From assembly GCF_050003625.1 (NCBI RefSeq), contig NC_134397.1, forward strand, positions 197,429,063 to 197,493,062: a stretch of DNA of 64,000 nt, given 5' to 3'. The notes beneath the pieces were generated by a model. It ran no database searches. It was not told the DNA's origin and worked only from the letters and a program-made list of their open reading frames with translations. The translations under genes were made by a program, and so were the position numbers. Source of the stretch: Haematobia irritans. Taxonomy: Eukaryota > Arthropoda > Insecta > Diptera > Muscidae. Shown here piece after piece: positions 13,729 to 61,112 of the stretch. Every line of letters begins with the position of its first letter. The stretch's first letter is position 1.

Positions 13729-15253
13729 TTAAACAAATTGTTCTTGACTATTGGCTGATAATTCCATTAACCTCCAAGCGGCTTTTGGATTTAATTCGTT
13801 GGGATCTCGGCATAAAACCCAAACATAATTGACACGCATTACTTTTTCAGGATCGCCTTCAACGACTTTGTTGGAACTGCGTTCACGAACACACATGATT
13901 TGTTGAGCTTGGAAAGTAATAATGAGTACAGGTCCTTGTTCCATCACTTTGCCCATGGCCAAATCAATATTTTCGATATCGAGAATTTTTGAATCTAAAT
14001 ATAGTCCAGCTTTAATGGCCTGGCTTATGGGTGTGGAAATAATATTAAAGGTACTCTCAAAACACCAATCTTTCAAAATCTCCAAATCTCCACGAACCAT
14101 TGCTTCCAGAATGTTGGGTATAATATCTGTTTCGCAGTCTTTTAGGAAATGTTTTTCGTCAAAATTGGGGTCTATTTTGCAAAGCTCAGTTAAAGTTTCT
14201 GACAATTCTGTTTTGGAAAATAGGCCTCCCATTACATCGGAAACTTTGTCTGTTAATAGCCTCGATGCCCGTATGACAGGATTTTCAGATTCTTCATATT
14301 TCATTTTCCAATCGAGAACTTTATTTACGTAGGCATTGTTATTTTTGAAATTTTCCCATGACTGATAGAATTTTGAGTCCTTATGCAGCTCCATGCCCAT
14401 AGCTTCCATATTTGGTTCAACAACTCTTTCATCTGCGGCCAAATCAACTTCTTTGCGTTTACGCAAGCGAGTCGGTGATCTATAAACTCTCGAGTTTATA
14501 CTTTGGGTATCCATTTCTTGTTTAATCATTTTTGTGGTATCAGATATAGCCTGAAATGCTGTAGTCTGACCAATCTTTTCACCTTTTTCAGATATGGTTT
14601 CCTTTGCAGTTTTAGCTTGTTTGGAAATTTCTTCGCCAAGTTTTGAAGCCTTTTTTGCAAAATCGGTTTTTCCGGCCTCATCAATAACATCGGAGACCTT
14701 TTCCTTGATGTTTCCTAGCTGGTCTTTTAGGATATTGGAAGATTTTTGTGCTTCTGATTCAACGACATTAAATTTTTGTCTAGCTGATTGCAATGCTTCG
14801 GATTGTTCCAACTTTTGAGCTTCTTCGCGGAATTTCTTAATGCTTTCTTTCATTTCCTTGTTTTTCTCCATTTCGTTTTTTATATTGTCGATGAATTGTG
14901 ACAGAAATCCTGGTCTTCTTCCTGGTTGCGAGTACCAACGCTAGAATATATAAATATGTATTGGTAAATATATGTAAAGAAATATATAACAATTATTTTG
15001 GAAATTCAAACTCCATGTGAGTCACATAAAGTTCCAAAAGTGAACTCACCTGCAGTTCCAGCGTTTGAAAACATTGTTTTCCCACTAGAATGGTTTTATT
15101 GTTCCTCGTTAAAGCCAGGAATTTGTACTAAAACCAAAAAAAACACGTCAATTTATTAAAAAACAGTTTTCGTAAAACCTTCACAAATTTACACCGATAT
15201 TTCATACATTTTCCGATATTAAAAACGCATATTTGATAAACATTACTTACCAT
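13729..15253 (-). CDS. TIMM44: TIM44, mitochondrial inner-membrane import motor subunit (430 aa)
   Basis: Coding exons are 15251-15253 (ATG only), 15050-15127 and 13729-14940, all joined in phase 0 with GT-AG introns. TIM44 tethers mtHsp70 to the TIM23 channel on the matrix side of the inner membrane and helps pull presequence proteins inward. The N-terminus (about residues 1-40) is basic with few acidic residues, as expected for a matrix-targeting signal. A long charged, coiled-coil-like stretch rich in K and E follows. The C-terminal half carries the conserved Tim44 domain (around FYQSWENFK, then IDPNFDEKHFLKDCETDIIP, and ending near RVNYVWVLCRDPNE). An AATAAA signal lies at 13675-13680, 49 nt past the stop. 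The length fits the insect family. Confidence 0.95.
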
Positions 15254-15518
15254 TTTGTTTAGTTTGTAAGTGGACAGTATTTAGTAATAATTTCAGTTAA
15301 TTTTTTTCAAATTAATTAATCCTAATGCCAATTTATGTAATTTGTCGGTGTATTTCGTGTGGATATTTTTTATCATGCTGTTTAATTGTCACTGTCAGAA
15401 CATCTGATTGGAATTTGACATTCCATTGGTTTCTCCTAAATATGAACTTTATTTTCATATTTACAAAAGGGCCGTTCAGATGAGAAGATTTGTTGGTTGA
15501 CTTATGTCGAATTTATGC

Positions 15519-15745
15519 GTCGTCCAGACTACAAGTTTTTCCGGACAGAATGTCTGTGTCTAGATTATAAGTATATCCGGACGATAGTGCTCGTGTCGAA
15601 CATATCCCAGATGTTGGCCACACTATAAGTTAAGTCCGAAGGCATAATCGATACTGCTGCATATTTTTGGGACCGATAAAACATTTACCGATTATTTAAT
15701 CATCGCCGACATTCCGTCCGGAAAAAAACTTATAATTTGGACGAT
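15519..15745. mobile_element. Foldback MITE, TCCGGAC family, copy 1
   Basis: An imperfect palindrome with arms of about 36 bp beginning near GTCGTCCAGACTACAAG and ending with its near-complement. The core (ATAATCGATACTGCTGCAT and ACATTTACCGATTATTTA) matches the reverse complement of the element at 23812-24054, so this is an older member of the same family. No coding capacity. Confidence 0.7.
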
Positions 15746-16053
15746 CATCAATTTAAAATTATACGAACGGTAACGATATTGGTTTTACAACAAATCTTAC
15801 AGTCACATTTACATTTCATTAAATTTTTCTGTGCTTAATTTTTGTAAAATCATTATAGCAGCTTGATATTGACCGATTGTGGGTGGAAGGCTCAAAATTT
15901 TACCAAAAAAATACAATACTTATTTATAGATTTTTCTGATTTAAATCGGTTAAATTTGAGTCGACATATGAGATTTTTATCGTAAATATACACTTTGTGC
16001 GTCGTTCATAGTATAAGCTTATCCAAAAGAAATGTCTATGTTTGTGTTATGAG

Positions 16054-16284
16054 CCGTACAGACTATAAGTATATCCGGACGGAATGTCTGTGTTCGTAAA
16101 GAATCTTACTTTGTGGCCGAACGCTAAGAATGGTCGGAGGTAAGTAAAATATCGATAAATGTGTTATCTATCCCATTAAGAAACAGCAGAATCGATTATG
16201 TTTTCGAACATAACTTATAGTGTCACCCGGATATGTCTCAAAATGTTGGACACGGGCATTATCGTCCGGATATAGTCTGAACGG
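16054..16284. mobile_element. Foldback MITE, TCCGGAC family, copy 2
   Basis: Inverted termini near CCGTACAGACTATAAG and CTATAGTC-like CCGTTCAGACTATATCC (read from the other end) bound a core homologous to 23812-24054. It is more diverged than that copy. It sits immediately upstream of the P-like transposase locus. Confidence 0.65.
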
Positions 16285-16357
16285 AGCAAAAATATTATTT
16301 TCAAATGTGCACGGTATATTATATCATTAGTAGTTCCCTAAACTAGTGACGTTAACA

Positions 16358-16458
16358 CCTCTCCTTAAATTGCCTTTTCCAACACTATTTTGCAAAAGTG
16401 CAGTTATAATTTCCCATTTAAAGGAATTAAAAAATTCTGTCAAACGATTTGCGAATGC
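16358..16458 (+). repeat. Segment X: copy of the nanos 5' flank
   Basis: About 101 bp running from CCTCTCC to GCGAATGC match 24245-24345, which lies about 245 bp upstream of the nanos start codon. Only a few differences near the 5' edge are seen. A 30-bp spacer separates it from segment Y. Confidence 0.85.
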
Positions 16459-16488
16459 ATTAAAGTTCCCATTTTTACAACTTTTCGA

Positions 16489-16608
16489 AAGTTTATGTGA
16501 AAATAGGTTTCCTTCATTTAGCACAAAAGTAAACAATTAAGTGAAATTATAGGAAAAAAAGTGTTTAAATTTGTATAGCAAAGTGAGTGCCAAGAGTATG
16601 GTTAATAA
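16489..16608 (+). repeat. Segment Y: copy of the Abi 5' leader region
   Basis: These 120 bp match 60742-60861 with a single visible mismatch. In the Abi locus the segment spans the probable first noncoding exon, a strong GTGAGT donor and 26 nt of intron. The copy was therefore made from DNA, not from spliced RNA. Confidence 0.9.
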
Positions 16609-16796
16609 CTGGCAGAACTGCATCCGGAAGCTGAAGGTGCAGTGGCAGTCGCAGAACTGCATCCGGAGGCTGAAGGTGCAGTGGCAGAACTGCATCCGGA
16701 AGTTGAATGTGCAGTGGAAGTCGCAGAACTGCATCCGGAAGCTGAAGGTGCAGTGACAGGTGCAGTGGCTGAACTGCATCCAGAGGCTGTAGGAGA
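16604..16796 (+). repeat. 33-nt coding minisatellite (AELHPEAEGAV units)
   Basis: Four to five imperfect units of GCAGAACTGCATCCGGAAGC plus GAAGGTGCAGTG, some with 6-nt spacers, read in one frame as the acidic repeat AELHPEAEGAV. This frame runs into the P-like transposase exons through a GTAAGT donor at 16820. Stop codons just upstream (TAATAA) close the frame, so no ATG in this frame precedes the repeat. Confidence 0.75.
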
Positions 16797-18328
16797 TATG
16801 AATCCACAGCAAATGGATTGTAAGTCATATTTTTAATCTCATATTTAAAATTTCATCAAACTTTTCCATATTTAAAATTTCATCAAATTTTTCCATACAG
16901 CTGACGGACTTAGTCGCCAGAATGAAAGGAGTAGACCCCCTCCTTTCACCCACCGTATATTTGGCGATCTTTATCAATATTATTTACATGGAAGTGATGA
17001 TTATGTTTCCTTCAACTTATCACGTATGTATTTATAAGTATTTTGCAAAATTTTTTATTTTTATAATAATGTTCAAAATGCTAATAAGATAATACTCTGT
17101 ACTTTTAAGGCACACCTGTAGAAATGCTTCTAAGAAATGCACCGGTAAGGATTCCGCAACAAGGCATTACAGAAATGATGAGAAATTTTTTGGCGTTTTT
17201 CGCAAGAAATTTACTTTCATACGAAAAATGCGTATGCATAGCATCCGACGAGATGTATGTTAATGCTTTGGGGGGACCCTTGAATGAAGCGAACAGAATT
17301 AGGGTCTTCTCCATGAGCAGTGTGGCTATGAAGAGACAGTGGTCGGTAGTGGTGGCGTACTACCCATTGACAAGGGCAAACCCTATTGGTTTAGATGTTG
17401 AACAACTTAAAGATGTTCTGGAAGCGGTGGAGGAGACCGGATTTAAGCCACATTTTTACTGTTCCGATTCATTCCCTCAAATAAGAGCTGCATGCATTGA
17501 GGAAGCCCACCTCTTCATATTAAGACCAGGTTATACTTACCTTTTATATTCATTTATTTCCAAGCTTTCTTATTTAATTTGATATTTATTTCAGAACTAA
17601 ATCCTTTGAACGAACGTGTGTGCTATGTCTTTTGGACATAATACATGCAATAAATTCTGCAAGGAAACATATAATGACTAATTTTGTTGACGTGAACACA
17701 ATTCCAGAGCGGTTCAAACTGAGATATGGATACCGTTGTGAACGCTTCCGCCATTTTTACGACCGCAACTATGGCAACTACTCATTTAATAGAGATTTTT
17801 TTTCATCCGAATTTAGTAATTTGGAATCTCATACGGAAGAAATTAGGGAAATTTTGCGAAAATTCCACAATCTTCTAAGTTCAAATTTCGCAAAATATGA
17901 ATTCGAAAAATTGGTTTATAGCGATATTGGTGAGTATATTAATTTATATCAATATATATTATATTTATTTTTTTATTTTAGAAACAATCGATGAGTACGT
18001 TCAATTTTTTATGCAGTCTGGAGATACTTTCAAGAAAGTGGTATACTCACTAATGGGAATTAAAGCGGCGGCTACAACCATATTCACAAGATTTGACATT
18101 GTAAATATAATAAAATGTAAATCTCTAACCACAATATGGTTAGAGCAATTATTTTCAATATGGCGTCATAATTACCCGATAAGAGCCACGTCATTATATC
18201 CAACATTGTACCTTATTGGGAGATTATACTCCCAATATTACATAACGGGACACCCATACACGACAAGGCATTTTCAATACGTTACAGACTTTGAAAAAGA
18301 AATGGAAATCCTTGAAATAAATTATTAA
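16610..18328 (+). pseudogene. P/THAP9-like transposase, decayed
   Basis: Exons inferred are: up to 16819; 16901-17023; 17110-17529; 17595-17929; and 17982-18328. P-superfamily transposases have an RNase-H-like catalytic fold. Visible hallmarks in order are SDEM (first acidic residue), a CSD block, a DIIHAINSARKH block resembling the P-element DTPHLIKLVRNH segment, and a C-terminal EQLFSIWR block resembling the family's EHFFGSMR. Near 17630 the frame must shift by one base to stay on the family pattern, and otherwise meets TAA at 17633-17635. No THAP zinc finger and no terminal inverted repeats were found. I call it a pseudogene, but alternative splicing around the shift cannot be excluded. 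Its 5' flank is chimeric (segments X and Y). Confidence 0.65.
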
Positions 18329-18779
18329 ATTATCAGGTAACTAATCAGATATTTTTCATAATATCGCAGCTTTATAAAGATTTATTTAATACAAGGTGCT
18401 TTCATCATTTCCAACATAAATTCAATTTCTCTTGAGAAAATACAAAAATGTGGAAATTTTTTAATAATCAATTGAACTTATAATAATTGATAAGAAAAAC
18501 TAAAACACGAAATGAAAACTTTAAGGCAATCACTAAACTCAAATCTCTTTGCAGACAACTAAAATATTTGGATGCTGCATTCTTGGACACAATAATGACA
18601 TAGTTTTCTTTGAAGAATTGGAGAATATGGGTGGTAATTAGGTGGTGTAATTATGCTACCGGAAACTCGCATTCAACAACAAATAATTCGCATATGATTT
18701 TGGATGAAGGTAAGACAGAAACAAACAAAAATATTCAGCCAACATGGACAGACAGTAAAAATGTCCATAATAGCCATTC
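18329..18779. other. AT-rich spacer without recognised gene
   Basis: Lies between the P-like locus and the minisatellite. I see no motif or reading frame I can support. Confidence 0.4.
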
Positions 18780-19225
18780 TACCAGAAATAGTATAAAATT
18801 TTCTATACAGAAAAAATTGAGAAAAACTTCTATACAGACACACAATTTTGACAAACTTTTCAGTAGAAAAAAAATGTTGACAAAATCTTCTATAGCAATA
18901 AAATTTTGACAAAATTTTCTATAGAAATACAATTTTTTCAAAATGTTCAATAGAAATAAAATTTGACAAAAGTTTTCTATAGAAATAAAATTTTGCCAAC
19001 AATTTTCTGTAGAAATAATATTTTGACAAAATTTTCTATAGAAATAAAATTTTGACCAGATTTTCTATAGAAAAAAATTGACAAAAATTTTTATAAAAAT
19101 CAAACGTTGACAAAATTTTCGATAAAAATAAAAATTTCACAAAATTTTTTATAGAAATAAAATTTTGACAATATTTTCTATAGAAATAAAATTTTGACAA
19201 AAGTTTCCTATAGAAATAAAATACA
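18780..19225 (+). repeat. TTTTCTATAGAAA minisatellite
   Basis: About 13-15 imperfect units of roughly 29 nt with consensus AAATTTTCTATAGAAATAAA followed by ATTTTGACA. Each unit contains the palindrome TTTCTATAGAAA. Related arrays occur at 25440-26090 and 57370-57470. It abuts the left edge of duplicate block A. Confidence 0.85.
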
Positions 19226-19283
19226 AAACAAGAACAAAATGCAAGAATAAAAATCAACTTAATTTTCTAATTTATAGCTGAAT

Positions 19284-20481
19284 TGGAAAGAAAGAAATCA
19301 CTGAAAACATTAATATACGAAGAAAAGCATGCGGTAAGTAAACAAACATTATCATGTCAATGTTTGCATAAATTAAAATGTTACACATTTCTCTGACACG
19401 GAGTTTACGTGGAATGCAAGCAGTTCTGAAGCAATACATTGATAACCGGGGTAGCATTGACGAAGCCATTGAAAAATCTCAAATACTGCAGGAGAACCCT
19501 CGTTTGTGTCCAACTTTATGCAAAGTTTTGGTTACTGAATTGATTTTCGGACGGAAGCAACTAAACGGCGAATCCAGACCTGTACAAACAGTACGCGAAT
19601 ACAGAGATCGTTTAGTGGAGGCTCTAGGAAGCGATCCAAGCTCTTTGGTGCAGAAGAAAAAAGGCAAGATTTACTGTTTAACACTCCCTTAAGACGTAAA
19701 TTCGAAGATGGGAAAAAATAAATTGAACATTGCCAAAAAGGAAAAATCTAATTTCGATGAAAGTCCAGAAAAGCCGGGTGATATTCCTGCACAAACAACT
19801 GAAGAATTGAATCCATCAGACCTCGATAATAGCAGCACAAATGCTTTCTTATGGTTAATGGTATTCTCAGTATTGATGTATACATTTCCATTTCTTACAT
19901 TTTATGGTGTCCGTTCATGGCTAGAATAATCATTTGAATTTGATACTTTTCAAAGGAATTGCTTTTCGGCGTTTGCATCAGCTTTAGTTGTAAACTTTAT
20001 AGTATGTCTTTACGTATATAAAGCATTCAGCGAAAAAGATTCCAGCAGCACTAACCCTCCGATAAACGAAAAGAAAAATAATTAAATTTAAGAAGCAAAT
20101 TTTACCCCCCATTGTAACTGATGTTGTAAATAACATTTTTGAATAAAGGCCTAATGAATAAAATTTTTAACTAATATATTATACACTTTCTTATTATTTC
20201 GTTTGTTTAGATGTTAAACCTCGCTATGTACGTATCAATAGAAATTTACTCAATGTCAATGATGCCCATGCTATGTTGGCTGATGAGCAATGGCGTAAAA
20301 AGGAAACCACACCATTCGAACGTTATGAAGATTTCTTGAAGGCAGTAATGGAATTGGAAGAAGACGAATACATGATGGACATGCATGTTGATGATTTACT
20401 TATTTTTCATCCAAAAAATAAACATTATTGGGCAAGTCATCAATATACCAAGGAAAAGCGTTTTATGCTGCAAGACAAGGT
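19284..20481 (+). pseudogene. NSUN5 fragment (no start, no catalytic exon)
   Basis: Corresponds to part of exon 1, exon 2 and exon 3 of the intact NSUN5 at 33194-35247. It lacks the promoter, the start codon and the last exon, which holds the SAM-binding site and both catalytic cysteines. The exon 2 acceptor ACACAG has become ACACGG, and the nearest alternative AG would shift the frame. Exon 3 coding sequence (about 20213-20479) is otherwise conserved. It cannot make a methyltransferase. Confidence 0.9.
19708..20085 (+). pseudogene. VMA21 copy with nonsense codon
   Basis: Alignable over its whole length to the intact VMA21 at 34373-34750. A GAA to TAA change at 19927-19929 ends the frame at 73 codons, after the first membrane segment and before the second. 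The rest stays in frame to the original stop, so decay is recent. It has also lost the shared NSUN5 promoter. Confidence 0.92.
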
Positions 20482-20518
20482 TTGTTCCGATGTGCACACA
20501 ATTTAATATCCCATTTGA

Positions 20519-20549
20519 GAATTCATGTATCCTTTAGATACATGAATTC
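20519..20549. repeat. Perfect 13-bp palindrome with 5-nt loop
   Basis: GAATTCATGTATC, loop CTTTA, then GATACATGAATTC. Block B has only the left arm and a different sequence in place of the right arm, so the right arm appears to be a local inverted copy. Confidence 0.9.
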
Positions 20550-20647
20550 CCATCCAGCCTATATAAGTATCTCATAATTATTTTTAGAATAGTCCTCTAA
20601 ATTACTGGCATGATATTTAATGTTTAAATTACTGGCAAAATTTAACA

Positions 20648-21394
20648 TACCTGATGGTTGGCTGAATGATTCTCCATTAACAAATATAGGTGTGTATCAA
20701 GCTAGTTTAATTGGAGAGGCATTGTATGATGCTCGGGTACAAATCGATCATGTGTATTGTTCGTCTGCTTATCGTTGCATTCAAACGTGTACCAGCGCAT
20801 TGGAAGGTAAGTGCAATAAATAAAAAAACATGGTGGAATTATCAATTTATCTATCGTATCAAATAAACATAAAATTAAATTGGAACCAGGATTATTTGAG
20901 TGGATGGCATGGTATCCCGAAGGTGTTCCCGATTGGCTTAGCAAAGATGAGTTGAAAGCAGCAAATTATAATGTTGATTCGGATTATCAACCACTTGTAA
21001 CCGTTAACAATCTCAATGAATCGATAAAGGAAACAACAGAAGAATTTTATACACGTAACTATGAGGTTTTAAGAAAAATTGTTGAATCTACTTGTAAGTT
21101 GGTTAGAAATAACTCCTGTAATTTATATTAATTTTGACATTTTTCCTCATTCTAGCTGGAAATGTTCTGATTGTGGCTCATGCTACTACATTGGATACCT
21201 GCACCAGACAATTAGTAGGAGAAGCACCAAGAAACATTAACGAATTGCGACAGGTTATACATAAAATACCTTATTGTAGTTTAGCAAATGTTGAACACAT
21301 TGATGGTCAATGGAAATTAGTGGAACCTGAATGTTTGCCAGTCACACATTCGAAAAATCCGCGGTTCGAATGGAATGCATTGAGTGCCACATAG
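20648..21394 (+). pseudogene. UBASH3 3'-exon fragment
   Basis: Matches exons 7, 8 and 9 of UBASH3 (37969-38750). The six upstream exons, including the catalytic RHGE, are absent. About 22 nt that contain the exon 8 splice acceptor and first codons are deleted near 20870, and CSPAYRC in the intact gene has become CSSAYRC. The last exon (about 21156-21394) is otherwise open to its stop codon. Nonfunctional as a phosphatase. Confidence 0.9.
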
Positions 21395-23811
21395 TGCAAG
21401 TGTTTTGAAGAGTTTATTAGTAAACTTTCTTCCTAAATGAAACAAAACAAATACATAATTATTAACATAAAATGTAGACCTAACTTGTTATTAACTTTTT
21501 TTTAAGTTACTATGATATTTATTTACAAACAATTCTAAATTTGTAACTTTGTTTTTTTTTATTTATTTTTTTATGAAGAGGTTGTGGTCTTAAATTAACT
21601 TATTACAATCCTAGCTGTTGTAATCTACCTTTACAGATATAATACTAAAATGTTGGTCTCGAGAATATCACGCAATCCTTAATACTGCCATATTACTTGA
21701 GTTCGTTTTCTTTAAAGATATATTTTGTTTTTTATAAATCTGTAACAGAAAAACTTTGGGCAATACACATTAATATATGATGAAATGTAATGTAATGTCA
21801 TCTCAAAAAAATAGAGCAAACAAAGTTGTAGATGTAAATATTATTTACATCAAGTATTGCACAAACATGTATATTTTTTCGGAATAAAATTGGAATTATC
21901 CCCGAATATTTTACTGCTCAATATATAGATAATATTTTTTAGCATACAATTAATGATAATTAATTCTATAAGATGGACTTATTATGCGTTAATCTGTCTC
22001 TTGATTGAAGATTTCAATTTTTCATTTGAAAACAACAGCCCGGTTGGAATGCCTGAAATAGCAAAAATGAACAATTTCACGCACGGTATGTAACTCCACC
22101 TTTAAAGCTTGGACCTATATTAGTTCTTCATGATGAAATTTGTAAGAAAATATTTAGCACAAAGTTGGATCACGCAGTTTAATGTGTTTCGGAAAAATGA
22201 TTTTCGAAAATCTTCCATGATGAAAGAATTTAGTACCAAGCTAATCACATTTTGTTTTTTGCGTAAATCCATGTATTTACACATAATTTAAAATTTAGTT
22301 TACTATAACAATTAAATGAATTACAAAACACGGTATTGTTCTTATTTTTAATTCGCTTCCAAATGGAATGTTTTTTATACAAATATATGTACTAACTTAT
22401 ATTTAGTATTACTATTATTATGCATTTCTTATTAGTGAAGTTTGAAAACATCTTGTTAGCAATATTAAAAAAATATAGGTACGATATATAAATTGATACA
22501 TAAAGAATGAAATATGTTTATTACTATAAAATGGATCATTTTTTACAAATCAAAAAGTTCAGGGTGGCTACCCACTTTCCGATTGTGAGAGAAATAAAAT
22601 TATCATTCCCAGTCACCTTTGTTTTTCTTTTGTGTTGTGGATAAAAGGAATTTCGGATGGCCCGAAATAATTTACATATTGATATTTTAAGAAACTACTT
22701 TTATGGACAAAGAAACATCATTCTTCTAATAATCTAATCTGAACAAAGCATTTATTCACAGTAAACGACCCTGTCACTACATCCCTGCCAGCATTTCAAT
22801 GTTCCATTTCATCCTCATCGCTACCACAGACTCGTAAGTGACACTGCAACAATCGCCAACTGTGATAGTATTTTGCCATCACTATTCGCATTAAAGTATT
22901 TTGCCATCACTATTGTTACAAGAGCCATTTTATATTTTGTGAAACACCAAGCGCAACTGGCTTATTATAATTTATTTCAATGAAAACGAAAATAAAGTGC
23001 TGAAAACATAGTTATTACGCTTAAAATTGTGAAAAGTAAATTGGTGAACAATTTTTGACTTTCCAAATGGAATAGTGATAGTTTTTCAAATATTTTTCCA
23101 GACACGCTGCCTCCATTGGGAATAAAAGTACTGGCTGATAGACGCTACAACATTTAACTTACAACTTGTAACTCAACATCAATCTCTTATTAATGCATAA
23201 AAATGTATTAAATGTGATGTGATAGAAATATAAATGTTATATTTATGAAAATTTATAAATGTTTCATAAAATTAATAAACATCTAAACAATCGTGTTTTA
23301 CTTGACCATAATGATTCTTTTAAAACTATCTTAAAATGCACTTTGTCTGATTGTTTGAAGGGGCTCTTATTGGCGTCCTTCTAAATGTATCCAGAAGGGC
23401 TCCTAATAATTGCACTCATGCGATACTTTTTTGTAGTAACTTGGCGTGGTACAACTTCTCAATAGTGACGGCGCTTTTCCGAGGAGTTTTGGATATCGTA
23501 TAAGACTGTTTTCGACGTAGTGGGGATTCTCTGAAGCGCCCCCAAATTCAAAAAATGTTGGCAGAGATCATGCAAAATGTTAATTGTCAGTTTCTTCCTA
23601 CATTTTACAATAACAGCGAGGTTTCCCTAATGATTTTCTGATGTAACATCGTATGTTATATATTAATTTTCTAGATTTGCGTATCTTAAGAAGGCGTGAA
23701 AATATAATCAAAAACAATTTAGCTAAAAAACACACTAACAAAATAGTGCTTTTAATTTACAGAACATTTTGGTGCTCATTTTTTTTAATTTCATTTCTTA
23801 TAAATGGACTA
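21395..23811 (+). other. Duplicated noncoding flank (block A)
   Basis: Noncoding copy of 35538-37968, reverse orientation, including a copy of repeat R at about 22760-23600. No gene is seen in it on either strand. Confidence 0.7.
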
Positions 23812-24054
23812 ATGCGCTTTACAGACTATCAGTTATTCCGGACGGAATGTCGGTGTTTGTAAAGAATCTTATAGTGTGTCGGATCGATACGACTTGTCGG
23901 CGATGACTAAATAATCGGTAAATGTGTTATCGATCCCATAAACATGCAGCAGTATCGATTATGCCTTCGGACTTAACTTATAATGTGCACAATATATGGG
24001 ATATGTTCGACGCGAGCACTGTCGTCCGGAATAACTGATAGTCTGTAAAGCGCA
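23812..24054. mobile_element. Foldback MITE, TCCGGAC family, youngest copy (243 bp)
   Basis: Near-perfect terminal inverted repeats of at least 30 bp begin GCGCTTTACAGACTATCAGT. TA dinucleotides flank the element (23810-23811 and 24055-24056). The equivalent place in block B (TA at 35537-35538) is empty and uninterrupted, so the element moved in after the duplication, with a TA target duplication as in Tc1/mariner-type elements. Confidence 0.9.
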
Positions 24055-24244
24055 TAAAACGTGCCCTATTTCTATATATTTATCATCTTTCTATAATTAA
24101 GTAATATTTCAATTGTGTGTAGTGTTGTGTTTAAAAAAGGTTTGAACTGAAAGGAAGTTCAACCTACCATTGTTTGAAATTGTGTTGAATTCAAGTATTC
24201 TTGATACTAATACGAATCCATTTTGTTCTCGTAACTTTGGCAAC

Positions 24245-24589
24245 CCTCTCCTTAATTGCCGTTTTCCAACACTATTTTGCAAAAGTGCAGTTATAATTTC
24301 CCATTTAAAGGAATTAAAAAATTCTGTCAAACGATTTGCGAATGCTTTGCTAGTTAGACGGGTCCATCGAGAAAAGTTTTGTTTAGTAAAATAGCGCTGA
24401 AGAAAATAAATTAGCAGTGTGATAGCAAACATAGCAATTGACCAAAATTTGAAAACTTGTAGTGTTTTTGCAACAATTTTCTAAGCTAGTTGTGTGTGTG
24501 TTGGAAACCAATGATCTACAGGTCTTCCGTACAAAAGTAACGGAGATTTTGTTTGGTTGAAATTGAAATTCCAGGAATACAGTTTAATT
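24245..24589 (+). promoter_or_regulatory. nanos upstream region and 5' leader
   Basis: Lies between the right end of block A and the nanos start codon. Its first 101 bp (24245-24345) are segment X, repeated at 16358-16458. The transcription start is not identifiable, but position makes this the likely nanos promoter and 5'UTR. Insertion of block A replaced everything farther upstream. Confidence 0.55.
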
Positions 24590-27500
24590 ATGTATCGCAG
24601 TAGTCCTGAGACAAAAAAGGTAAGCACGATAATGCATGTTCATATGTATGAAAGTTTTGAGGGGGGGCATGAGTCTGAATAAACAGTTATATGTGCATCA
24701 CGTCTGTCTGATTGTCTTCTTTTCATTTTCTTTTTCAGCAACCCGAAATGTTAAATAATTTCTTCGGATTAAACAGTCATGGGCTGCATATGAAATGTTT
24801 CCAAGAAATGTATTTGGATACATGCAGTAAATTGGTTGAAGCGTCTGCCAACATTTCTCCCACATCTTCAATGATGGAGTCTTCATCACAAAGCTCATCA
24901 TCACAATCTTCTTTGTCACCTACATCAACGGCAAGTTTGTCTCCTCCATCTAGACAACAACAACAACAGCAACTACCTGTAGGAGGTAACTTAGGTGGCA
25001 GTGGTATGTCGGAAAATTTACAACAGCAGCAACATGATGAAATTTCAAAATCACTACAAATGTTTGCTATGTTGACTGCCTATTCCAATGGGAATGGTAA
25101 GTAGAAATATAGAGTTTTCTGCACATTCCTCTATTCTTAGAACTAAAAAAATGAATTCCAAGGAATATTTTTTGTTTCGTAGAATCGATCGTTACGTTGT
25201 AATTTCAAGGTTTTCGCGATAAATTAACACTGGCATAAATATACTTTCGATTCTAAACTCGAAATGTTATTGTTACAATTTTGTGTTGGAAAGGCCTAAT
25301 TTCAGAATTAAGGGCGACGACATTTTCATTATCATTTATTTTGGACTTAGTATCACGGTTCCCACTGGTGGTAGAATTCTACCAAAAATAGTAGAATTCT
25401 TGATGTTTTGGTGGATTTTGCAAGGCATTTCTCTCCAACTAAGAGATACTTAAATTTTCTATATAAATGGGATTTTGGCCAAATTTTCTATAGAAATAAT
25501 ATTTTAAAATTTTGTTTAAAAAAATTTTTTTTGGGAAAATATTCTATACGAATAAAATTTTGAGAAAATTTTCTATAGAAATAACATTTTGAGAAAATTA
25601 TCTAGAGGAATAAAATTTTGAGTAAATTTTCTATAGAAATATTTTTTTACGACTTGTGGTAAAGTGCATTTGTTCCAAATTCATAATTTATGTATTTATC
25701 GAAAAAAAATGGGAAAATTTTCTATAGAAATAAAATTTTAAGAAAATTTGCTATAGAAATAAAATTTTGAGAAATTTCTCTATAGAAATAAAATTTTGAG
25801 AAATTTCTCTATAGAAATAAAATTTTGAGAAAATTTTCAATAGAAATAAAATTTTGATAAACTTTTCTATAGAAATAAAATTTGGAGAAATTTTTCTATA
25901 ATAAAATTTTGAGAAAAAGTTCTATGGAAATAAAATTTTGAGGAAATTTTCTATAGAAATAAAATTTTGAGAAATTTTTCTATAGAAATAACATTTGAGA
26001 ATTTTTTCTATAGAAATAAAATTTGGGAAATTTTCCTTTGGGTATAAAAATTTTAGTACATTTTCTATAGCAATAAAACTTTAAATAATCTATATATTAT
26101 ATTTTTTTGAACTCCTACCTCTTAAAAAACAACCAAATTCCTATTTTTTTTATTTATCGTTCTTCGTAATTAATACACATAAAAAATTAATAAACTTTTT
26201 CTTACATACAAAAGGCTTTACAATTATAATTCTATATTCGTAGAATTATTTTTATTCAGTGGAATATTTTTGTTTCATGGAATCGACCATTCATATCATT
26301 AACTTGTAATCTTTTTGTGAGTTCTCAAAAGTTTATATTACGTGTTTTGAATGAATAACTCAAAACACTTAGCTTTGGTCCAACCTATATTTGTAGGGAT
26401 TATCTTGAGATCTTTACGATAATTATTTTCCTGCTTCCGTTTCCTAATTATGTACATATACAATATTGAACAAACAAAATCGCCGCAATCTTACTCACCT
26501 ATACAAATGACAAGTTAAACAACAACAAATACCTATAGGCCGTTGCGGTATATCAAAATGTTTTCTACAGTAGTACCAACATGATGAATCTTGCTATTCC
26601 CATGGGAATAGTAGAAAATGGCTTTTTGTACATTTCCGTTATTCCTAGAATTGAAATTGAATTTTATGGAATATATTTTTTCGTGGAATCCATAATCCAA
26701 GGTTGCCCTGAAAAATTTTTAAATGCTTACCACAAATGGTAAATTGCTATAGCTTTGGTCCATGGGAAACTTTGGTTAGGATATACTCAAATATTCCCAT
26801 CGTATATGACCACCATCTACTACATTTGTATTCATGGTTTATTTTTAGAACCGACAGCGGGTATCGAGGTACCCCAATTGCCAAATTCTCCCGTTGAGGC
26901 AGTAATGCAAGATTTTGCCTGTAATGGTTATATTTGTGATGAGCTTAATCGCTATCACCTCGGGATTCATTTGTCCAATGCCGCCGCTGCCTGTGGAGGA
27001 AATAACTTAAGTGCAGGCCAAAGTACCTCAGGACTTTTGGCAGCAGCAGTGAATCAACCTTATAATGGTGTCAATCCACTCACAAGTTCAGCACTTTCAT
27101 TTACACCACAACAACTTCAGCAGTTGCAGCAATTGCAGCAACATAACATCAATCTGAATTTTAACAACAACTTTTGGAAAATGTTACCTACCCACTTACA
27201 ACAACAGAATGCTGCTGCAGCTGCTGCTGTTAATATGGATTATAATTGCAATCAAAATAAGAAAATTCCCAAGCGCTATAATAATGGATCGAAAAACGAA
27301 AAATATGTAAGTATACATAACCAATATAGGATATTTCACTACATTATCACAAAAATATCGAAATATCGTTTCATAGAAATTAGATATTAACATTTCAAAA
27401 ACGTTCTACAAAATACTGGCATTTTATCAGCAACTTACAAAATCTTTTGTCACAAAAACTTTATACAATTCATATTTTTTTTTTTTAAATTATAATCATT

Positions 27501-28728
27501 GATAAGATTTAATAAAAACAAATATCAATCAATATTAAAGTGAAACTGTTAACTTTTAAATTGAATAAATTAAAAAATTTTGATTTATATTGGAGAAATT
27601 TATAATAATTTTCAAGTTTGAATAATTTTCTTTGCAAATAGAAGGTATTATCGGAGCTATAAGTTTGGTTAGTTCGCATAAACCGCCATTGTACGGAAAC
27701 TTTTTGATGTAGAAAGATCTTTGAAAGTGTATATCCTTTTTTTAATTTCAATGCATTTCTAATCAATCCGAGGCGAAATGAACTAATTCATAAAGTGTAT
27801 TCTGCGTCATATTATTATTATTTTTATTTGAGTATGACTAGCACAACATATTGATACGCTATAGCCCATTTCTGAAACATTTGGGCCATAGTCGATAATT
27901 ATTTTATATTGGTTTTTCATGAATATTAAAATTATTAATTTCGTTTTGTTTTGTTGGTTTTGTTCATTGTTATTGTTTTTGATTTCAGCTTAAAACCATG
28001 CATTGACTAAACTACAAGTGTAGCTTAACCAACAGAGGAAAAGAATGTTTGTCAAATTTATTTGGGCAAAGCCCTATAGACTGCAAGATGGTTGGATGGA
28101 CGCACGTTTCGAAATTACCACATTCCTCATCAGCATCCTCTACTTGCAGCAAAACTATCAACCAATTATCAGAATAAATTCAGGCAGTTCATTAAACCCA
28201 ACAATGAACCACACTTGAACCTTCCGAAAAAAGGTTTTACATGATAGCCGGCTTATGCCGAAATAAATTCGTACAAACATATCTCTTTTTCCTTTGCCAC
28301 CGTCAAATCATCGGTTTGAGTGCAGTTGGCTGGGTTTATTTTGAGCGTGCTTCCTCTTTTCACATTCGTTTTGTTTTGATAAGTTTTAAGCTGAAATCAA
28401 AAACAACAACAATAATTAATTTCCTAGTCTTTTTAATTATATTTATTTAATTTTTTTTCAGACATCGGCTAAACATTGTGTTTTCTGTGAAAATAATAAT
28501 GAACCAGAGGCCGTTGTAAAATCCCACGCGGTGCGTGATTCTTTGGGCAGAGTCCTTTGTCCTAAATTACGGACATATATATGTCCAATTTGCAAAGCAT
28601 CTGGCGATAAGGCACATACTGTTAAGTATTGTCCCCAAAAGCCGATAATTACAATGGAAGATGCCGTCAATGCGGAATCGTTCCGCCTATCCAAAGGCAC
28701 ATACTATAAACAACAAATGAAAGTTTAA
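24590..28728 (+). CDS. nos: Nanos, germline translational repressor (370 aa)
   Basis: Exons are 24590-24619, 24739-25096, 26849-27306 and 28462-28728, all GT-AG with matching phases. Nanos acts with Pumilio on target mRNA 3'UTRs in germ cells and the posterior embryo. The last exon encodes the two diagnostic CCHC zinc knuckles. The first has spacing C-X2-C-X12-H-X10-C starting at about C288, the second C-X2-C-X7-H-X4-C ending at about C339. The tail [17 protein letters not shown] is near-identical to the fly protein. The short first exon ([10 protein letters not shown]) and the [13 protein letters not shown] motif match the fly N-terminus. The middle is rich in Q, N and A. A polyadenylation signal lies at 28899-28904. 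No CTGGC loop typical of Smaug recognition elements was seen in 28729-29700. Intron 2 contains a minisatellite. Confidence 0.97.
25440..26090 (+). repeat. TTTTCTATAGAAA minisatellite in nanos intron 2
   Basis: Roughly 18-20 degenerate units of about 28-30 nt, AATTTTCTATAGAAATAAAA followed by TTTTGAGA. Same family as 18780-19225 but with GAGA in place of GACA, a subfamily mark. Interrupted by unrelated sequence at about 25650-25700. Confidence 0.85.
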
Positions 28729-30819
28729 ACAACTACAAAAAAAAATCGTAATCAAATTGGTTTCTACAAAAGAAGAAAATATCAAAACGTTTTGATAAAT
28801 TCTCATTTTTAATCAATATACGATAGATATATATATATGCATATATGTTAAAAAAAATGTTTTGAAAACATTTTTAGTACTGAATTAATAATAGATTAAA
28901 TAAATGCGCTTGATGCGTACTCGTTAGATTTTATAGTAGTATAAAAAGTTTTCTTTTATACATTAAAAGATTAGTTTTGCATAAACACAAATGTTTTAAA
29001 TGTATAAAATTCCCAGTTAATTTAACTTTTGTATATGTATTACAAATCTATTACAATTTTATTGCATTTCAATCGTAGCTAATACGTTATAATGAATTTG
29101 CTTACAATATACATATATATGTAATAAACCAAAATTTGCCTTCAAATTACTCTTAATTGAGTTAACGATTTTTTCACAATTTGTTGATCAATTGTGAATT
29201 CGATTTTAAAAGTATTTCATACAATCTTTTTAAATTTTTTCTAATGTCTACATGTAAAATGATTTTTTAAATTAATCCATAAAGTATAACTTCAATGATG
29301 TTTTGTTTACACATGTTATATATCTCAATACCTAATTTTCTTAATATTTTAAAATAATTGACATTTAATTACAAAAAAAACAAAAAAGAATAAGATTTGA
29401 TATTAAATTTTTTAAATTAAATATTTTCTTCGTTTAAAACAAAATTTTTGCTTATATTGATCGTGAAAAAAACATATAATGTTACAACAAGAAGCTAATT
29501 TTATTTTCAAGTAGATTTTGAAATTTCGTTTAATATAAATGTCTTAATTTATTTCATTATTACTCAATATTCAATATGAGAATTCAATCATTTTAATTTT
29601 GTGATTTATAAAAGTTAATGCACTCATATTAACATAATGAGATATGTATGTAATATTGAGGTGTGACGACCATCATCCAAAACAAATCTTATAAGTCGAG
29701 CTCGATTTATGTATTCTAATTACCACATATGTAAAAAATTACGTTTTATAATAAATAAATGTATATTTTTATACAAGCTGAACATGACAAGAGGATCTAT
29801 TTTATTTGAGGTTCTTTGCAGGAAAATAAAAATATCCGCAAACTCTAGCAGTTTGCTAAAGCTACTCATATTTACTACGAGTTTAGTAAAAAGTATAAAA
29901 TAAATAATAAACTGTACTGTTCCGAGGGTAACTCCAGTAAAGGTATAATAGAAAGCACATGAAAAAGAGGTAATTAAAGTAAATAAATAATAAATAGGCT
30001 TACCAACATAACCAGGATGGTGCAATAACTACTTGGCCTAACAGCCTGATGCAAGTGTATCACAAAAAAAAATCTTCACCTGGGTCATTATCATAATCGC
30101 CGCCCGCGGAAGTGAGAATTACCGAGGATTTTAGAAACATGGACTCCATTTTCCATGTTTTTAAAATCCTCGCAGATACTTTTTTCCGAAATCAAAGAGC
30201 GATTGAGTGCTGTGTACAGTAACTATTCTTTTTTCGAAATTATAGTTCTAAACCGAGGTGCCACCCTCGAACAATTTTCCCATAATTCTTTTCACCTATA
30301 CCAATAAATTTCCCAGATTATTCAAACAAGCACGAAGAAATTTACCGGAATAACCCAATTGATTCCAGAATTGGGAAACTGAATTTGGAGACCAAAAGAG
30401 AGTCAACGAACAAAAGTACTATATGGGAAGGATGACCGAAGAGGGAGATAATTGGTTTATGCCGACGGGGTTGTCGGAGCCAGACATGAAGCGATTTACG
30501 TCAGCCAAAAGTATGCGAGAGTATCCTGTAAACATATAACCATCCAACCATATACATTTTTCTTTTTTTTTTTACATTTTACTCGTTATGAAATTCGAAA
30601 AACAAAACGTTTTTGCAAATTCTGTAAAAACAAAATAATCATGAAAGTTAGAATAAGCGACAAAGTTAACTGGACACTTCATTTACTCAGTTATGCAAAA
30701 TCAATATACATACAAATTATTCATTTTCTCTTGAACTGCACTTGCTTTTTATTATTGGCAAAAAGTTGCTGAAATAATTCAAATGTGTTAGCATTGCAAA
30801 TAAACAAGTATATAAAGCA
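28729..30819. other. nanos 3' flank, no gene recognised
   Basis: Contains nanos 3'UTR at its start (AATAAA at 28899 and further candidates near 29122). A small inverted repeat lies at about 30120-30175 (CCGAGGATTTTAGAAACATGG against its near-complement). No coding sequence can be supported. Confidence 0.45.
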
Positions 30820-32850
30820 GTAAATTCGGCCGGGCCGAATTTTAAATACCCACCACCATGAATCAAGTATAATAGGTTACTATGAAAACTCTTTGTCGTA
30901 GTGGGTTACTTGATAATATATAGAATTGTAGGGGGTTTCATGACAAATCTTCTCCCAAACGAGCCAGCTCCCGAAGACTAACTTTAAAGATTCTACCTAT
31001 GAAGGCCAGATAAGATTCTGGATTTATGAGAACCAATTTTGTTTGAGTTTTAGAGAAAATATAAACATATCGTGTATATGTTGAAATTACGCCTTGACTT
31101 AAAATCTTAAATCTGTAGATTTTTCCGCATTTATTTAAATACGATGAGTAAAATCTGGAACTTTTACTTTCAGTTTGAAGCAATTTTCATGATCAGTGCG
31201 CCTGCTATACCCTGAAAGAAGTGTTTTCTTTTTTGAGAAACGTAATTTTAGGCAAGCAAAGTTTTCTTTTGACACAAATTTTAGAGACAATCGTTGAATA
31301 AACGAAACACTTTATAAGAAAAAGAAATTTCGTTTGTCTAAAATTTTATTATAGATTACTAATTTCCAGCAAATCGGATAAAAACTACGGATTCTAGAAG
31401 CCCAAGAAATAAAGCCGGGAGATCGGTGTATATGGGGGCTATACCAAAACATGAACCGATAGGCATCATTTGCTACTCACATATTTGTGATCTTAAAATA
31501 CCTCCAGATTTTCAATTTCAAACAAGTCGGCCAGAAAATATAGTCTCTAAACGCCCAAGAAGTAAAAATCGAGAGATCAGTCTATATGGGGGTTATACCA
31601 AAAAATGGACCGATATACCTCAATTTCGGCACTCTTATTTGTGGTCTAAAAATCCCTCTAGATTTCGAATTTCAGGCAAATCATGTAATAAATACAGTTT
31701 ATTGTAGCTCAAGAATTTCAGGCAATGCGGATGTTAAATATAGTTTCTAGAAGCCCAAGAAGCAAAATGGGAGATCGGTCTATATGGGGGCTATACCAAA
31801 AAATGGACCGATGGGCACCATTTTCGGCACACCTTTTTATGGTCCCAAAAGAACTCTACATTTTCAATTTCAGGAAAATCGGATAGAAAATATAGTTTCT
31901 AGAAGCCCAAGAAGCTAAATTGGGAAATCAGTCTCTATGGGGGCTATATCAAAACTTGGACCTATGAGCACCATTTTCGGCACACCTTTTTATGGTCCTC
32001 AAATACCTCTAGATTTCCAATTTCAGGCAAATTGGATAAAAACTACGGTTTTTATAGGCCCAAGACTCCAAATCGGGAGGATGGTTTATATGGGGGGTAT
32101 ATCAAAACATGGACCTATGCGAACCATTTTCGACACACCTCTTTATGGTCCCAAAATACCTTTAGATTTTCAATTTCATACAAATCGGATAGAAAATACT
32201 GTTTCTAGACGCCCAAGAAGCAAAATCGGGAGATCGGTCTATATGGGGGCTTTACCAAAACATGGATCGATGTGGACCATTTTCGACACACCTCCTTATG
32301 GTCCTAAAATACCTCTGGATTTTCAATTTCAGACAAATCGGATAGAAAATACTGTTTCTAGACGCCTAAGAAGCAAAATCGGGAGATCGGTCTATATGGG
32401 GGCTATACTAAAACATGGACCGATACGGACCATTTTCGACACACCTCTTTATGGTCCCAAAATGCCTTTAGATTTCCAATTTCAGGCAAATCTGGTAAAA
32501 CTACGGTTTTTATAGGCCCAAGACCCCAAATCGGGAGGTCGGTTCATATGGGGACTATATCAAAACTTGAACCGATATAGCCCATCTTCGAACTTGACCT
32601 GCCTGCAAACAAAAAACTAATCTGTGCCAAATTTTGGGACGATAGTGCCATTATTGAAGGCTGTAGCGTGATTACAACAGACAGACAGAGGGACAGACGG
32701 ACATGCTTATATCGTCTTAGAATTTCTCCCTGATCAAGAATATATATACTTTATATAGTCGGAAATCGATATTTCGATGTGTTACAAACGGAATGACAAA
32801 CTTATTATACCCCCGTAACCATTTTATGGTGGTGGGTATAATAAAAACAA
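30820..32850 (+). repeat. Dispersed repeat, TACCCACCACCAT family, with eight ~152-bp internal units
   Basis: Begins with GGCCGGGCCGAATTTTAAAT plus ACCCACCACCAT and ends with ATACCCCCGTAACC..TATGGTGGTGGGTATA, so both ends carry a TACCCACCACCAT-like box. The interior has units marked by GGGAGATCGGTCTATATGGG at about 31419, 31571, 31770, 31922, 32075, 32228, 32381 and 32531. Related copies are at 47820-48420 and 38850-40130. No recognisable protein. Confidence 0.8.
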
Positions 32851-33193
32851 TAAGACAATATCATTGATATATCCCACGTCTGGAAAAAGAGTAGAGATTC
32901 TGCTAATGGGTCCAATCTAACATTCAGATCATAGTTCCGAAAACAAATTCCCCAAACGTCTCGGAGTCACATTCGAGAGTCTCTTCAAACTTAAGCTTCT
33001 ACTTACTTAGAATAGCGTGGGTGCAAACTAATTTGGATTTCTTTCCATTTTACGAAGGCGCTTACACCAACAATAAAACTCAACAACTACACAATAAGTC
33101 AATGTTTTATTAATCCGATCATGTAAATTCATAACTAAAGCTTTAACATAAAGTGTATTGTAATTATATGAAATATGTAAAGAATTTATCAGC

Positions 33194-35247
33194 TTATTCT
33201 TCGAATTTAGTTTTTTCAAAAATCGCTATGAATATACCATCTGATAAATCTTCCGATGGTCTTGTGTACAAACAATTTTTACCAATTTTTTTATATTCCA
33301 AATTGCCAACATTAATCCATTTGTTGCGTAAGGACTTTTTAGCACTTAACAATTTAAACGATGGATTCATTTCCAAACATCTTTGAACCACTTGTTCGTT
33401 CTCTTCTTCGTATAGAGAACACGTAGAATAGGCAATACGTTTGATATCCGGAAATGCAGTCATAGCATGCGAAAGCATTTTAATTTGTAATCCAGCTAGT
33501 TTCTTTAAACGTTCTGGATTTTTTTCGTCTGGTTCCAAGGACATACGATTTTGCATACCTGATCCTGAGCACGAAGGATCGACGAGAATATATTCCACAC
33601 CAGGACATTGTTCTGCAGTTACCGTGAGAGCATCCGCTTGTATGGGTTGGACTATTTCGCAGCCAGCAGATTTTGTCATGTTGCACAAAACATTATGACG
33701 TTCTGGACTTTGTTCCACTGAATATATGATGCCTTGGTTGTTCATAACGTTGCATACATGGATTGTCTTCATTCCTGGGGCAGCACACATATCTAAAACG
33801 GTACTACCCACTGGAGGATTTAGCAGTTCAGCTACTAAGCAGGTACCCTATAAGTAAATATCATGCCAGTAATTTAGAGGACTATTCTAAAAATAATTTT
33901 GAGATACGTATATAGGCTGGATGTAACAATATCTAAAGGATACATGAATTCTCAAATGGGATATTAAATTGTGTGCACATCGGAACAAACCTTGTCTTGC
34001 AGCATAAAACGCTTTTCCTTAGTATATTGATGACTTGCCCAATAATGTTTATTTTTTGGATGAAAAATAAGTAAATCATCAACATGCATGTCCATCATGT
34101 ATTCGTCTTCTTCCAATTCCATTACTGCCTTCAAGAAATCTTCATAACGTTCGAATGGTGTGGTTTCCTTTTTACGCCATTGCTCATCAGCCAACATAGC
34201 ATGGGCATCATTGACATTGAGTAAATTTCTATTAATACGTACATAGCGAGGTTTAACATCTAAACAAACGAAATAATAAGAAAATGTATAATATATTAGT
34301 TAAAAATTTTATTCATTAGAAATGTTATTTACAACATCAGTTACAATGGGGGGTAAAATTTGCTTCTTAAATTTAATTATCTTTCTTTTCGTTTATCGGA
34401 GGGTTAGTGCTGCTGGAATCTTTTTCGCTGAATGCTTTATATACGTAAAGACATACTATAAAGTTTACAACTAAAACTGATGCAAACACCGAGAAGCAAT
34501 TCCTTTGGAAAGTATCAAATTCAAATGATTCTTCTAGCCAAGAACGGACACCATAAAATGTAAGAAATGGAAATGTAAACATCAATACTGAGAATGCCAT
34601 TAACCATAAGAAAGCATTTGTGCTGCTATTATCGAGGTCTGATGGATTCAATTCTTCAGTTGTTTGTGCAGGAATATCACCCGGCTTTTCTGGACTTTCA
34701 TCGAAATTAGATTTTTCCTTTTTGGCAATGTTCAATTTATTTTTTCCCATCTTCGAATTTACGTCTTAAGGGAGTGTTAAACAGTAAATCTTGCCTTTTT
34801 TCTTCTGCACCAAAGAGCTTGGATCGCCTCCTAGAGCCTCCACTAAACGATCTCTGTATTCGCGTACTGTTTGTACAGGTCTGGATTCGCCGTTTAGTTG
34901 CTTCCGTCCGAAAATCAATTCAGTAACCAAAACTTTGCATAAAGTTGGACACAAACGAGGGTTCTCCTGCAGTATTTGAGATTTTTCAATGGCTTCGTCA
35001 ATGCTACCCCGGTTATCAATGTATTGCTTCAGAACTGCTTGCATTCCACGTAAACGCTGTGTCAGAGAAATGTGTAACATTTTAATTTATGCAAACATTG
35101 ACATGATAATGTTTGTTTACTTACCGCATGCTTTTCTTCGTATATTAATGTTTTCAGTGATTTCTTTCTTTCCAATGCAATTTTTAATACGGCTGCACAC
35201 CTTTTGTATTGGGTGGGAACTTTAACTGAATGATTAAAACCCGACAT
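33194..35247 (-). CDS. Nsun5: NSUN5, 28S rRNA cytosine-C5 methyltransferase (435 aa)
   Basis: Exons are 35125-35247, 34795-35056, 33991-34259 and 33194-33847. NSUN5-family enzymes methylate a conserved cytosine of large-subunit rRNA with SAM. The last exon has the SAM motif DMCAAPGMKT, the DPSCSGSGM catalytic loop with its cysteine, and the second cysteine in YSTCSLYEEENE. The N-terminal region (about residues 1-130) matches the family's helical domain. Intron 2 uses a GC donor (GGCAAGA after AAAAAAG) and contains VMA21. If unspliced, translation ends ten codons on, 16 nt before the VMA21 ATG. An AATAAA for the long mRNA is at 33106-33111. The partial copy at 19284-20481 is its decayed duplicate. 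Confidence 0.95.
34308..34313 (-). terminator. Intronic polyadenylation signal after VMA21
   Basis: AATAAA on the minus strand about 60 nt downstream of the VMA21 stop and inside NSUN5 intron 2. It would end the short NSUN5/VMA21 transcript that does not use the GC-AG splice. Block A has two such signals at about 20141 and 20156. Confidence 0.6.
34373..34750 (-). CDS. Vma21: VMA21, V-ATPase assembly factor (125 aa), nested in NSUN5
   Basis: VMA21 is a small ER membrane chaperone for assembly of the V0 sector of the vacuolar ATPase. The protein has a hydrophilic N-terminus of about 45 residues. Two membrane segments follow (about residues 46-70, FLWLMAFSVLMFTFPFLTFY; and 83-103, ending VVNFIVCLYVYKAF), then a charged tail. 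This is the VMA21 hairpin layout and length. The gene lies wholly inside NSUN5 intron 2 on the same strand, starting 16 nt after the stop codon read when that intron is retained. No separate promoter is evident, so it probably shares the NSUN5 promoter. The start ATG is the first in frame. Confidence 0.88.
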   Translation of the reverse strand: MGKNKLNIAKKEKSNFDESPEKPGDIPAQTTEELNPSDLDNSSTNAFLWLMAFSVLMFTFPFLTFYGVRSWLEESFEFDTFQRNCFSVFASVLVVNFIVCLYVYKAFSEKDSSSTNPPINEKKDN

Positions 35248-35330
35248 TATTATTTCAACAATGTTGTTTGAGAGAGTGCATCTCTTGCACGTGATGTTGT
35301 AGGAAATGTCAAAATATTATAAAAGGGTTG

Positions 35331-60741: not shown

Positions 60742-61112
60742 AAGTTTATGTGAAAATAGGTTTCCTTCATTTAGCACAAAAGTAAACAATTAAGTGAAAT
60801 TATAGGAAAAAAAGTGTTAAAATTTGTATAGCAAAGTGAGTGCCAAGAGTATGGTTAATAATAGTAGTAGTACAAATGATAAAATGCCCAAAAAATATAG
60901 AAAGAAAATTTTACGTGTGGCCTATATTCTTTGCTTTGTGGCTGTGTATGTGTGCATCATTTTTTTATCACTTGAGTCACACCCCGCTGTAAAATGATGA
61001 ACTATGATATCTACTCTATTTCCCACTAAGATGACAATTCTGAATAATTTATTCAAATGAGTTTTGAGTTAATTGTAGTTTCCTTACATAAACGGTGCTT
61101 TTTGTTTTGCAG
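60742..61112 (+). promoter_or_regulatory. Probable Abi 5' leader exon and first intron
   Basis: A strong donor AAA|GTGAGT at 60836 pairs with the acceptor TTTTGCAG ending at 61112, so the Abi mRNA probably carries a noncoding exon ending at 60835. Bases 60742-60861 are segment Y, copied at 16489-16608. The transcription start was not identified. Confidence 0.6.

Follow-up and report, generated by a model that had tools for sequence, protein, structure and literature searches.

An inverted, swapped-order duplication between Tim44 and nanos in the horn fly Haematobia irritans, and its possible origin from a circular DNA intermediate

The 64,000-nucleotide stretch of horn fly (Haematobia irritans) DNA analysed here, hereafter the window (RefSeq assembly GCF_050003625.1, contig NC_134397.1, positions 197,429,063 to 197,493,062, forward strand), carries the nanos gene between two related blocks, A and B. 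Block B (33855-38746, minus strand) lies within an intact neighbourhood of the genes NSUN5, VMA21 and UBASH3, while block A (19282-24247), located between Tim44 and nanos, is the reverse complement of B with its two halves exchanged. An original prediction, made from the DNA letters alone, took this arrangement as the signature of a circular DNA intermediate. Being inverted and circularly permuted is in itself no proof of a circle, because an inversion with staggered breaks, a rival that the original prediction did not raise, yields the same picture, and the synteny of the flanks must also be considered.

Results

Self-comparison of the window resolves A into three plus-strand segments, confirming that it is an inverted, circularly permuted copy of B. 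Segment 1 (19282-20619) matches B 35176-33855 in reverse complement (E = 0) and contains NSUN5 from codon 25 onward, VMA21, NSUN5 exon 3, and most of the following intron; segment 2 (20644-23812) corresponds to B 38746-35536 (E = 0), comprising the last three UBASH3 exons and their 3' flank; and segment 3 (24055-24247) corresponds to B 35538-35324 (E = 2e-66). Read along its plus strand, A follows the minus strand of B from 35176 to 33855 and then from 38746 to 35324, with the addition of a 242-bp miniature inverted-repeat transposable element (MITE; 23813-24054) that is absent from B and, as read from the sequence, carries a terminal inverted repeat of 32 bp and is flanked by the target duplication TAA. 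The far ends of B are fused within A, as had been claimed, although the joint lies at 20619/20644 (rather than 20619/20648) and the B end at 38746 (rather than 38742). Likewise, the partners of the two ends of A are indeed neighbours in B, 147 bp apart, at 35176 and 35324 (not 35178 and 35331). The B stretch without a counterpart in A (35177-35323, minus strand) covers sequence upstream of NSUN5, its ATG (35247) and its first 24 codons, in agreement with the predicted opening point at the NSUN5 5' end. The copied length of B is 4.9 kb, and 9.6 kb separates A from B; if the copied length is taken as uniform over 0.5-10 or 0.5-15 kb, the chance of the ends of A falling 147 bp apart in B is ∼2-3%.

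Ungapped mismatches between A and B number 22/1318, 37/3160 and 2/191 in the three segments, or 61/4669 overall (98.7% identity; 95% confidence interval of the divergence 1.00-1.68%), accompanied by 2, 8 and 1 gaps (16, 44 and 22 bases, respectively; 11 gaps in total). Divergence does not differ significantly between the two halves of A (22/1318 vs. 39/3351; Fisher p = 0.20), as expected from a single event. Coding sequence contributes 1584 aligned bases with 20 differences, of which 8 are synonymous and 12 nonsynonymous, and noncoding sequence contributes 3085 with 41; with fly mutation rates of 2.8-5e-9 per generation, A would be roughly 1.3-2.4 million generations old. A 261-base query spanning the joint, compared with the whole 1.17-Gb assembly, produced three matches (three candidates, three scored), corresponding to the full A and the two halves of B, and the 10-kb flanks of the window contain no additional copy of A or B.

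NSUN5, VMA21 and UBASH3 are all intact across B, and their counterparts in A are damaged; B is therefore the native donor and A a dead pseudogene copy, as originally predicted. NSUN5 (33194-35247, minus strand; catalytic exon 33194-33847) harbors VMA21 (34750-34373) between its exons, and UBASH3 (37969-53266, minus strand), with UBA, SH3 and histidine-phosphatase exons, extends beyond the right end of B, to 53.3 kb. VMA21 is complete in B, whereas codon 74 is a stop in A; six VMA21 codons differ by amino acid or stop, four of them at columns invariant in an alignment of eight rows (B plus seven other flies, picked from 24 matches), and B has the conserved residue at 4/4. Block A lacks both codons 1-24 and the catalytic exon of NSUN5, the native splice acceptor of its UBASH3 exon at the joint is gone, and a 21-bp deletion removes the start of the following UBASH3 exon. 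In B, NSUN5 exon 1 is uninterrupted, its HS(V/I)KVP start is present in 15/15 aligned fly proteins (the protein encoded by B itself and 14 picked from the matches listed), and the B-encoded NSUN5, with exons joined, is identical to the annotated Haematobia irritans protein. For the 24 NSUN5 residues missing from A, the rest of the window and its 10-kb flanks offer nothing better than a match with E = 4. The integrity of the three genes in B rules out A as the donor. Sequences, joints and the direction of copying are read directly from the window.

At the joint, a filler of ∼24 nt (20620-20643, plus strand; the placement is our own choice) separates the two fused ends of B. It contains TAAATTACTGGCA, a 13-nt word also present 27 nt upstream and so a copy of adjacent sequence, while none of 107,356 24-mers from outside A and B shares any 13-mer with the 305-nt joint flank (0/107,356). 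The filler is templated and resembles the products of end joining by polymerase theta. When Drosophila repairs breaks through the alternative pathway that depends on this polymerase, insertions copied from the flanks are common (PMC2895639), similar to the joint in A, although runs of 3-8 nt are usual there and the A filler, with 13 nt copied, exceeds them. A perfect 13-bp hairpin lies 70-100 bp from the joint in A, whereas its counterpart in B is imperfect; the hairpin accounts for 5/7 mismatches in the 143 aligned bases nearest the joint, plus a 4-bp gap, and a change of this sort suits template switching. Within 500 bp of the two ends of B, the longest common word is 10 bp in either orientation, and homologous recombination between them is rejected on this ground. 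The region of opening and the left target flank of A have a longest common word of 14 bp, in inverted orientation. The closing joint and the right end of A display microhomology or short indels in place of homology, a feature described as non-specific in the work on human circular duplications (PMC7450558), whereas the opening cost 147 bp against the 1-27 bp reported there. The B ends, 33855 and 38742-38746, lie within ∼8 nt of splice acceptors (by our own reading, exons start at 33847 and 38750), possibly by chance.

The predicted insertion upstream of nanos is borne out. nanos (nos; 24590-28728, plus strand) has a zf-nanos exon at 28420-28728 and a probable start at 24590. Facing it head-to-head from the far side of A is Tim44 (13732-15253, minus strand; the first exons are predicted), which contains a Tim44 domain (13732-14940, minus strand, E = 8e-44) and which we take to be the orthologue of CG11779, on the assumption that CG11779 is Tim44. 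Published accounts place nos and CG11779 head-to-head in Drosophila and in the blowfly Cochliomyia hominivorax, where the nos promoter overlaps the CG11779 5'UTR; in Wohlfahrtia magnifica, nos is linked to CG11779, and a FlyBase paper names the two as an overlapping or nested pair. This published synteny, together with one presumed orthology, places the insertion in the Tim44/nanos interval, and the published nos/CG11779 adjacency would suggest that outgroups lack A. On the other side of nanos, 153/154-bp tandem arrays occupy 31393-32576, between nanos and NSUN5.

Block A does not occur by itself: it makes up just the rightmost two thirds of a longer tract, which has a copy of a 105-bp direct repeat at each end. 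The left copy, X (16354-16458, plus strand, ∼105 bp), lies on the Tim44 side and is 97.2% identical to the right copy, X' (24242-24345, plus strand), which begins exactly where homology between A and B stops and overlaps the end of A by a CCT common to both (microhomology). On the simplest reading, X and X' look like a target-site duplication between Tim44 and nanos, in which case the insert spans ∼16459-24243. To the left of A, the tract includes a 120-bp patch (16489-16608, plus strand) that is 99.2% identical to 60742-60861 (plus strand); this presumed donor has an Abi-like exon ∼0.3 kb downstream of it (Pfam Abi_HHR with E = 0.0017, which does not reach the Pfam cut-off). The same part of the tract contains a short minisatellite and a multi-exon P-element-transposase-like gene (16798-18328, plus strand; start set by likeness to P0145), for which 1514 candidates yielded three matches, all from horn fly, the best at 75% identity and one covering just 18% of the query. 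A second minisatellite, with a 29-bp unit (18795-19222, plus strand), ends 60 bp before A, and the right flank and other parts of the window have related arrays. Divergence of the patch and of X is about as low as that of A, whereas the P-like gene may be older than A. Relatives of the MITE in A lie between Tim44 and X, at ∼15510-15750 and 16045-16290 (89% and 80% identity over 151 and 172 columns, respectively; limits by eye).

Discussion

The best reading of these data is that a circle derived from B (or a single B fragment that was broken and re-ligated) was captured together with other scraps during repair of a break near the nanos/Tim44 promoter. Between these two, we lean somewhat toward the circle, opened, captured with the scraps between Tim44 and nanos, and then decayed. 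The B segment 33855-38746 (4.9 kb) would have been joined end to end by error-prone end joining that left the templated filler; the circle would have been cut at the 5' end of NSUN5 (between 35176 and 35324), with the loss of 147 bp; the opened molecule, along with the 120 bp matching 60.7 kb and the P-like unit, would have been taken up where the DNA had broken between Tim44 and nanos, ∼105 bp at the ends of the break becoming duplicated; and A would later have acquired the MITE, the VMA21 stop and the UBASH3 deletions. We infer physical closure from the arrangement: closure at 33855/38746 and opening within 35176-35324 is the most economical account because the ends of A fall so close together in B. 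As in circular duplications, the order is flipped, the donor ends are fused in the copy, the ends of the copy are adjacent in the donor, and donor and derivative can be told apart. The earlier claim that a circle explains all the breakpoints stands insofar as the order fits, but that order is not unique to a circle, since a staggered inversion or a broken and re-ligated linear B fragment gives the same.

Several points weigh against a circle. The window contains just its expected product, not the circle itself, and the swapped order with both halves in one orientation is also expected, in one of four arrangement classes, from a fragment that breaks a single time and is then re-ligated. Reinsertion at 9.6 kb is unusually close, as 16 human cases are separated by 0.09-58 Mb or lie on other chromosomes, and the 147 bp lost at opening exceeds the 1-27 bp reported for such cases (PMC7450558). 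The additional scraps beside A speak for a patchwork of several pieces, for which a closed circle is unnecessary, and the P-like unit, only 75% identical to the nearest relative found, may predate A.

A broader version of the circle reading, in which one repair event captured the B circle, a copy from a locus 44 kb away and the P-like unit, with the 105-bp target duplication, and split a head-to-head promoter pair, is put forward tentatively and is, in our judgement, rather less probable than not. All parts of the tract would then have arrived in a single event, making this a germline, nucleotide-resolved circle-plus-patchwork insertion in an insect.

The nearest alternative dispenses with a closed circle: either a fragment of B was severed close to where NSUN5 starts or the copying polymerase changed templates, after which the two pieces were strung into the break along with the scraps, in a manner resembling chromoanasynthesis or microhomology-mediated break-induced replication. 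Breakage once and re-ligation must be taken seriously because the left part of the tract is a patchwork, with its match to 60.7 kb and its P-like unit; the templated filler, the CCT microhomology and the hairpin perfect in A but imperfect in B all suit this explanation. Alone, however, it does not account for the ends of A lying 147 bp apart in B, nor for the two halves retaining one relative orientation, and we judge it less likely than the circle, though the strongest competitor to it.

A former head-to-tail tandem of B, from which a segment spanning the junction was copied to nanos before the second B was lost by unequal exchange, seems improbable. The joint in A could equally be that of a tandem duplication, and such joints are typical false positives for circular duplications (PMC7188851), but a second B has left no trace in the window or in 10 kb on either side, and the stretch copied would need to match a single unit in length to within 3%.

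Very improbable, too, is that the nanos interval was inverted once, through staggered breaks at either end that duplicated the break regions as P-Q ... rc(P)-rc(Q), a mechanism discussed for Drosophila inversions. With P as NSUN5/VMA21, S as the UBASH3 segment and rc denoting the reverse complement, the order alpha-P-M-S-beta would become alpha-P-rc(S)-rc(M)-rc(P)-S-beta, which fits the observed blocks exactly, as in an inverted duplicate, and would explain the inverted orientation of A and B and their 9.6-kb closeness. Yet such an inversion would make the ends of A ancestral and the interior of B new, breaking NSUN5, although B has exon 1 of that gene whole and conserved; it requires UBASH3 as the 5' neighbour of nanos, although the published neighbour is CG11779, and Tim44, presumably the same gene, is still there; and it does not yield X and X'. 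We reject it on flank synteny, the direct repeat and the intact NSUN5, an uninverted outgroup order being unsupported. Because the identity of CG11779 with Tim44 is our assumption, we rate the inversion slightly higher, and the circle slightly lower, than we otherwise would. Least probable is an assembly artefact or haplotype duplicate, given the 61 substitutions and 11 gaps that separate A from B, the MITE with its target duplication, and the location of both blocks on the same 281-Mb contig. A retrocopy or circular RNA is rejected, as A retains introns and its joint is not at splice donors, and so is gene capture by a Helitron or an element with terminal inverted repeats, as no TC...CTRR or terminal inverted repeat was seen by eye at the ends of A or of the tract, which has a 105-bp repeat instead of a short target duplication.

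Swapped-order duplications are already established in human, tilapia and cattle, and the horn fly provides a clear fly case of this known kind of accident. KIT translocations in cattle, in work attributed to Durkin, reportedly passed through circular intermediates and are circularly permuted as A is, but are said to involve up to 480 kb, to join different chromosomes and to have a coat-colour phenotype. Human segmental duplications mediated by circular DNA (Chicote et al. 2020, PMC7450558) resemble A and B in their A-B/C-D to B-A/D-C flip, in the fusion of donor ends in the copy, and in microhomology and short indels at the joints; they differ in size (22 kb to 3.9 Mb vs. 4.9 kb) and in the spacing of even the nearest pair (90 kb), and the other scraps and the 105-bp direct repeat set the horn fly apart from them. 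Human duplications mediated by extrachromosomal circular DNA (eccDNA; Takahashi and Innan 2020, PMC7188851) likewise have swapped order with halves in the same relative orientation, but the three candidates span ∼20-130 kb and none is described with a target duplication in the accessible text. A vasa duplicate in Nile tilapia (PMC3245284) resembles A as a DNA-level copy with introns, swapped order and the involvement of a germline gene; there, however, a ∼28-kb circle went to a distant site and vasa itself was copied, whereas nanos is the neighbour of the landing site. Among flies, reintegration of eccDNA has been proposed for a Drosophila mojavensis histone block (PMC3355041), although this differs from A in its size (∼90 kb), tandem repeats and location at an inversion breakpoint, and a permuted single copy is not described in the accessible part of that account. 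No permuted single-copy duplication in a fly was found in the literature searched, whose partial coverage makes this weak evidence of absence.

The horn fly locus is notable for where the copy landed, for how small it is and for scars that can still be read. It offers a young, small and legible fly example of how swapped-order duplications originate, with joints that point to error-prone end joining, and, because the insert separates nanos from Tim44, which are paired head-to-head in Drosophila and blowflies, it represents a natural experiment on nanos regulation.

Several further observations concern the blocks and their neighbourhood. Three pieces at 55644-56698 are 80-90% identical to B 35784-36576 (the UBASH3 3' flank), with a ∼370-bp interruption that has inverted ends; this relative may belong to an old repeat family, and was set aside as a third product of the circle given an identity of merely 80-90%. 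A UBASH3 intron contains a Copia-type long terminal repeat (LTR) retrotransposon (41163-45574; RVT_2 and rve domains) with LTRs 99.5% identical. Over 779 bp (36232-37010), A and B are free of mismatches, a run reached in 2/2000 shuffles of the mismatches, which could reflect gene conversion between the inverted copies. Finally, A and B form 98.7% identical long inverted repeats flanking nanos (24248-33854), and recombination between them could invert the gene.

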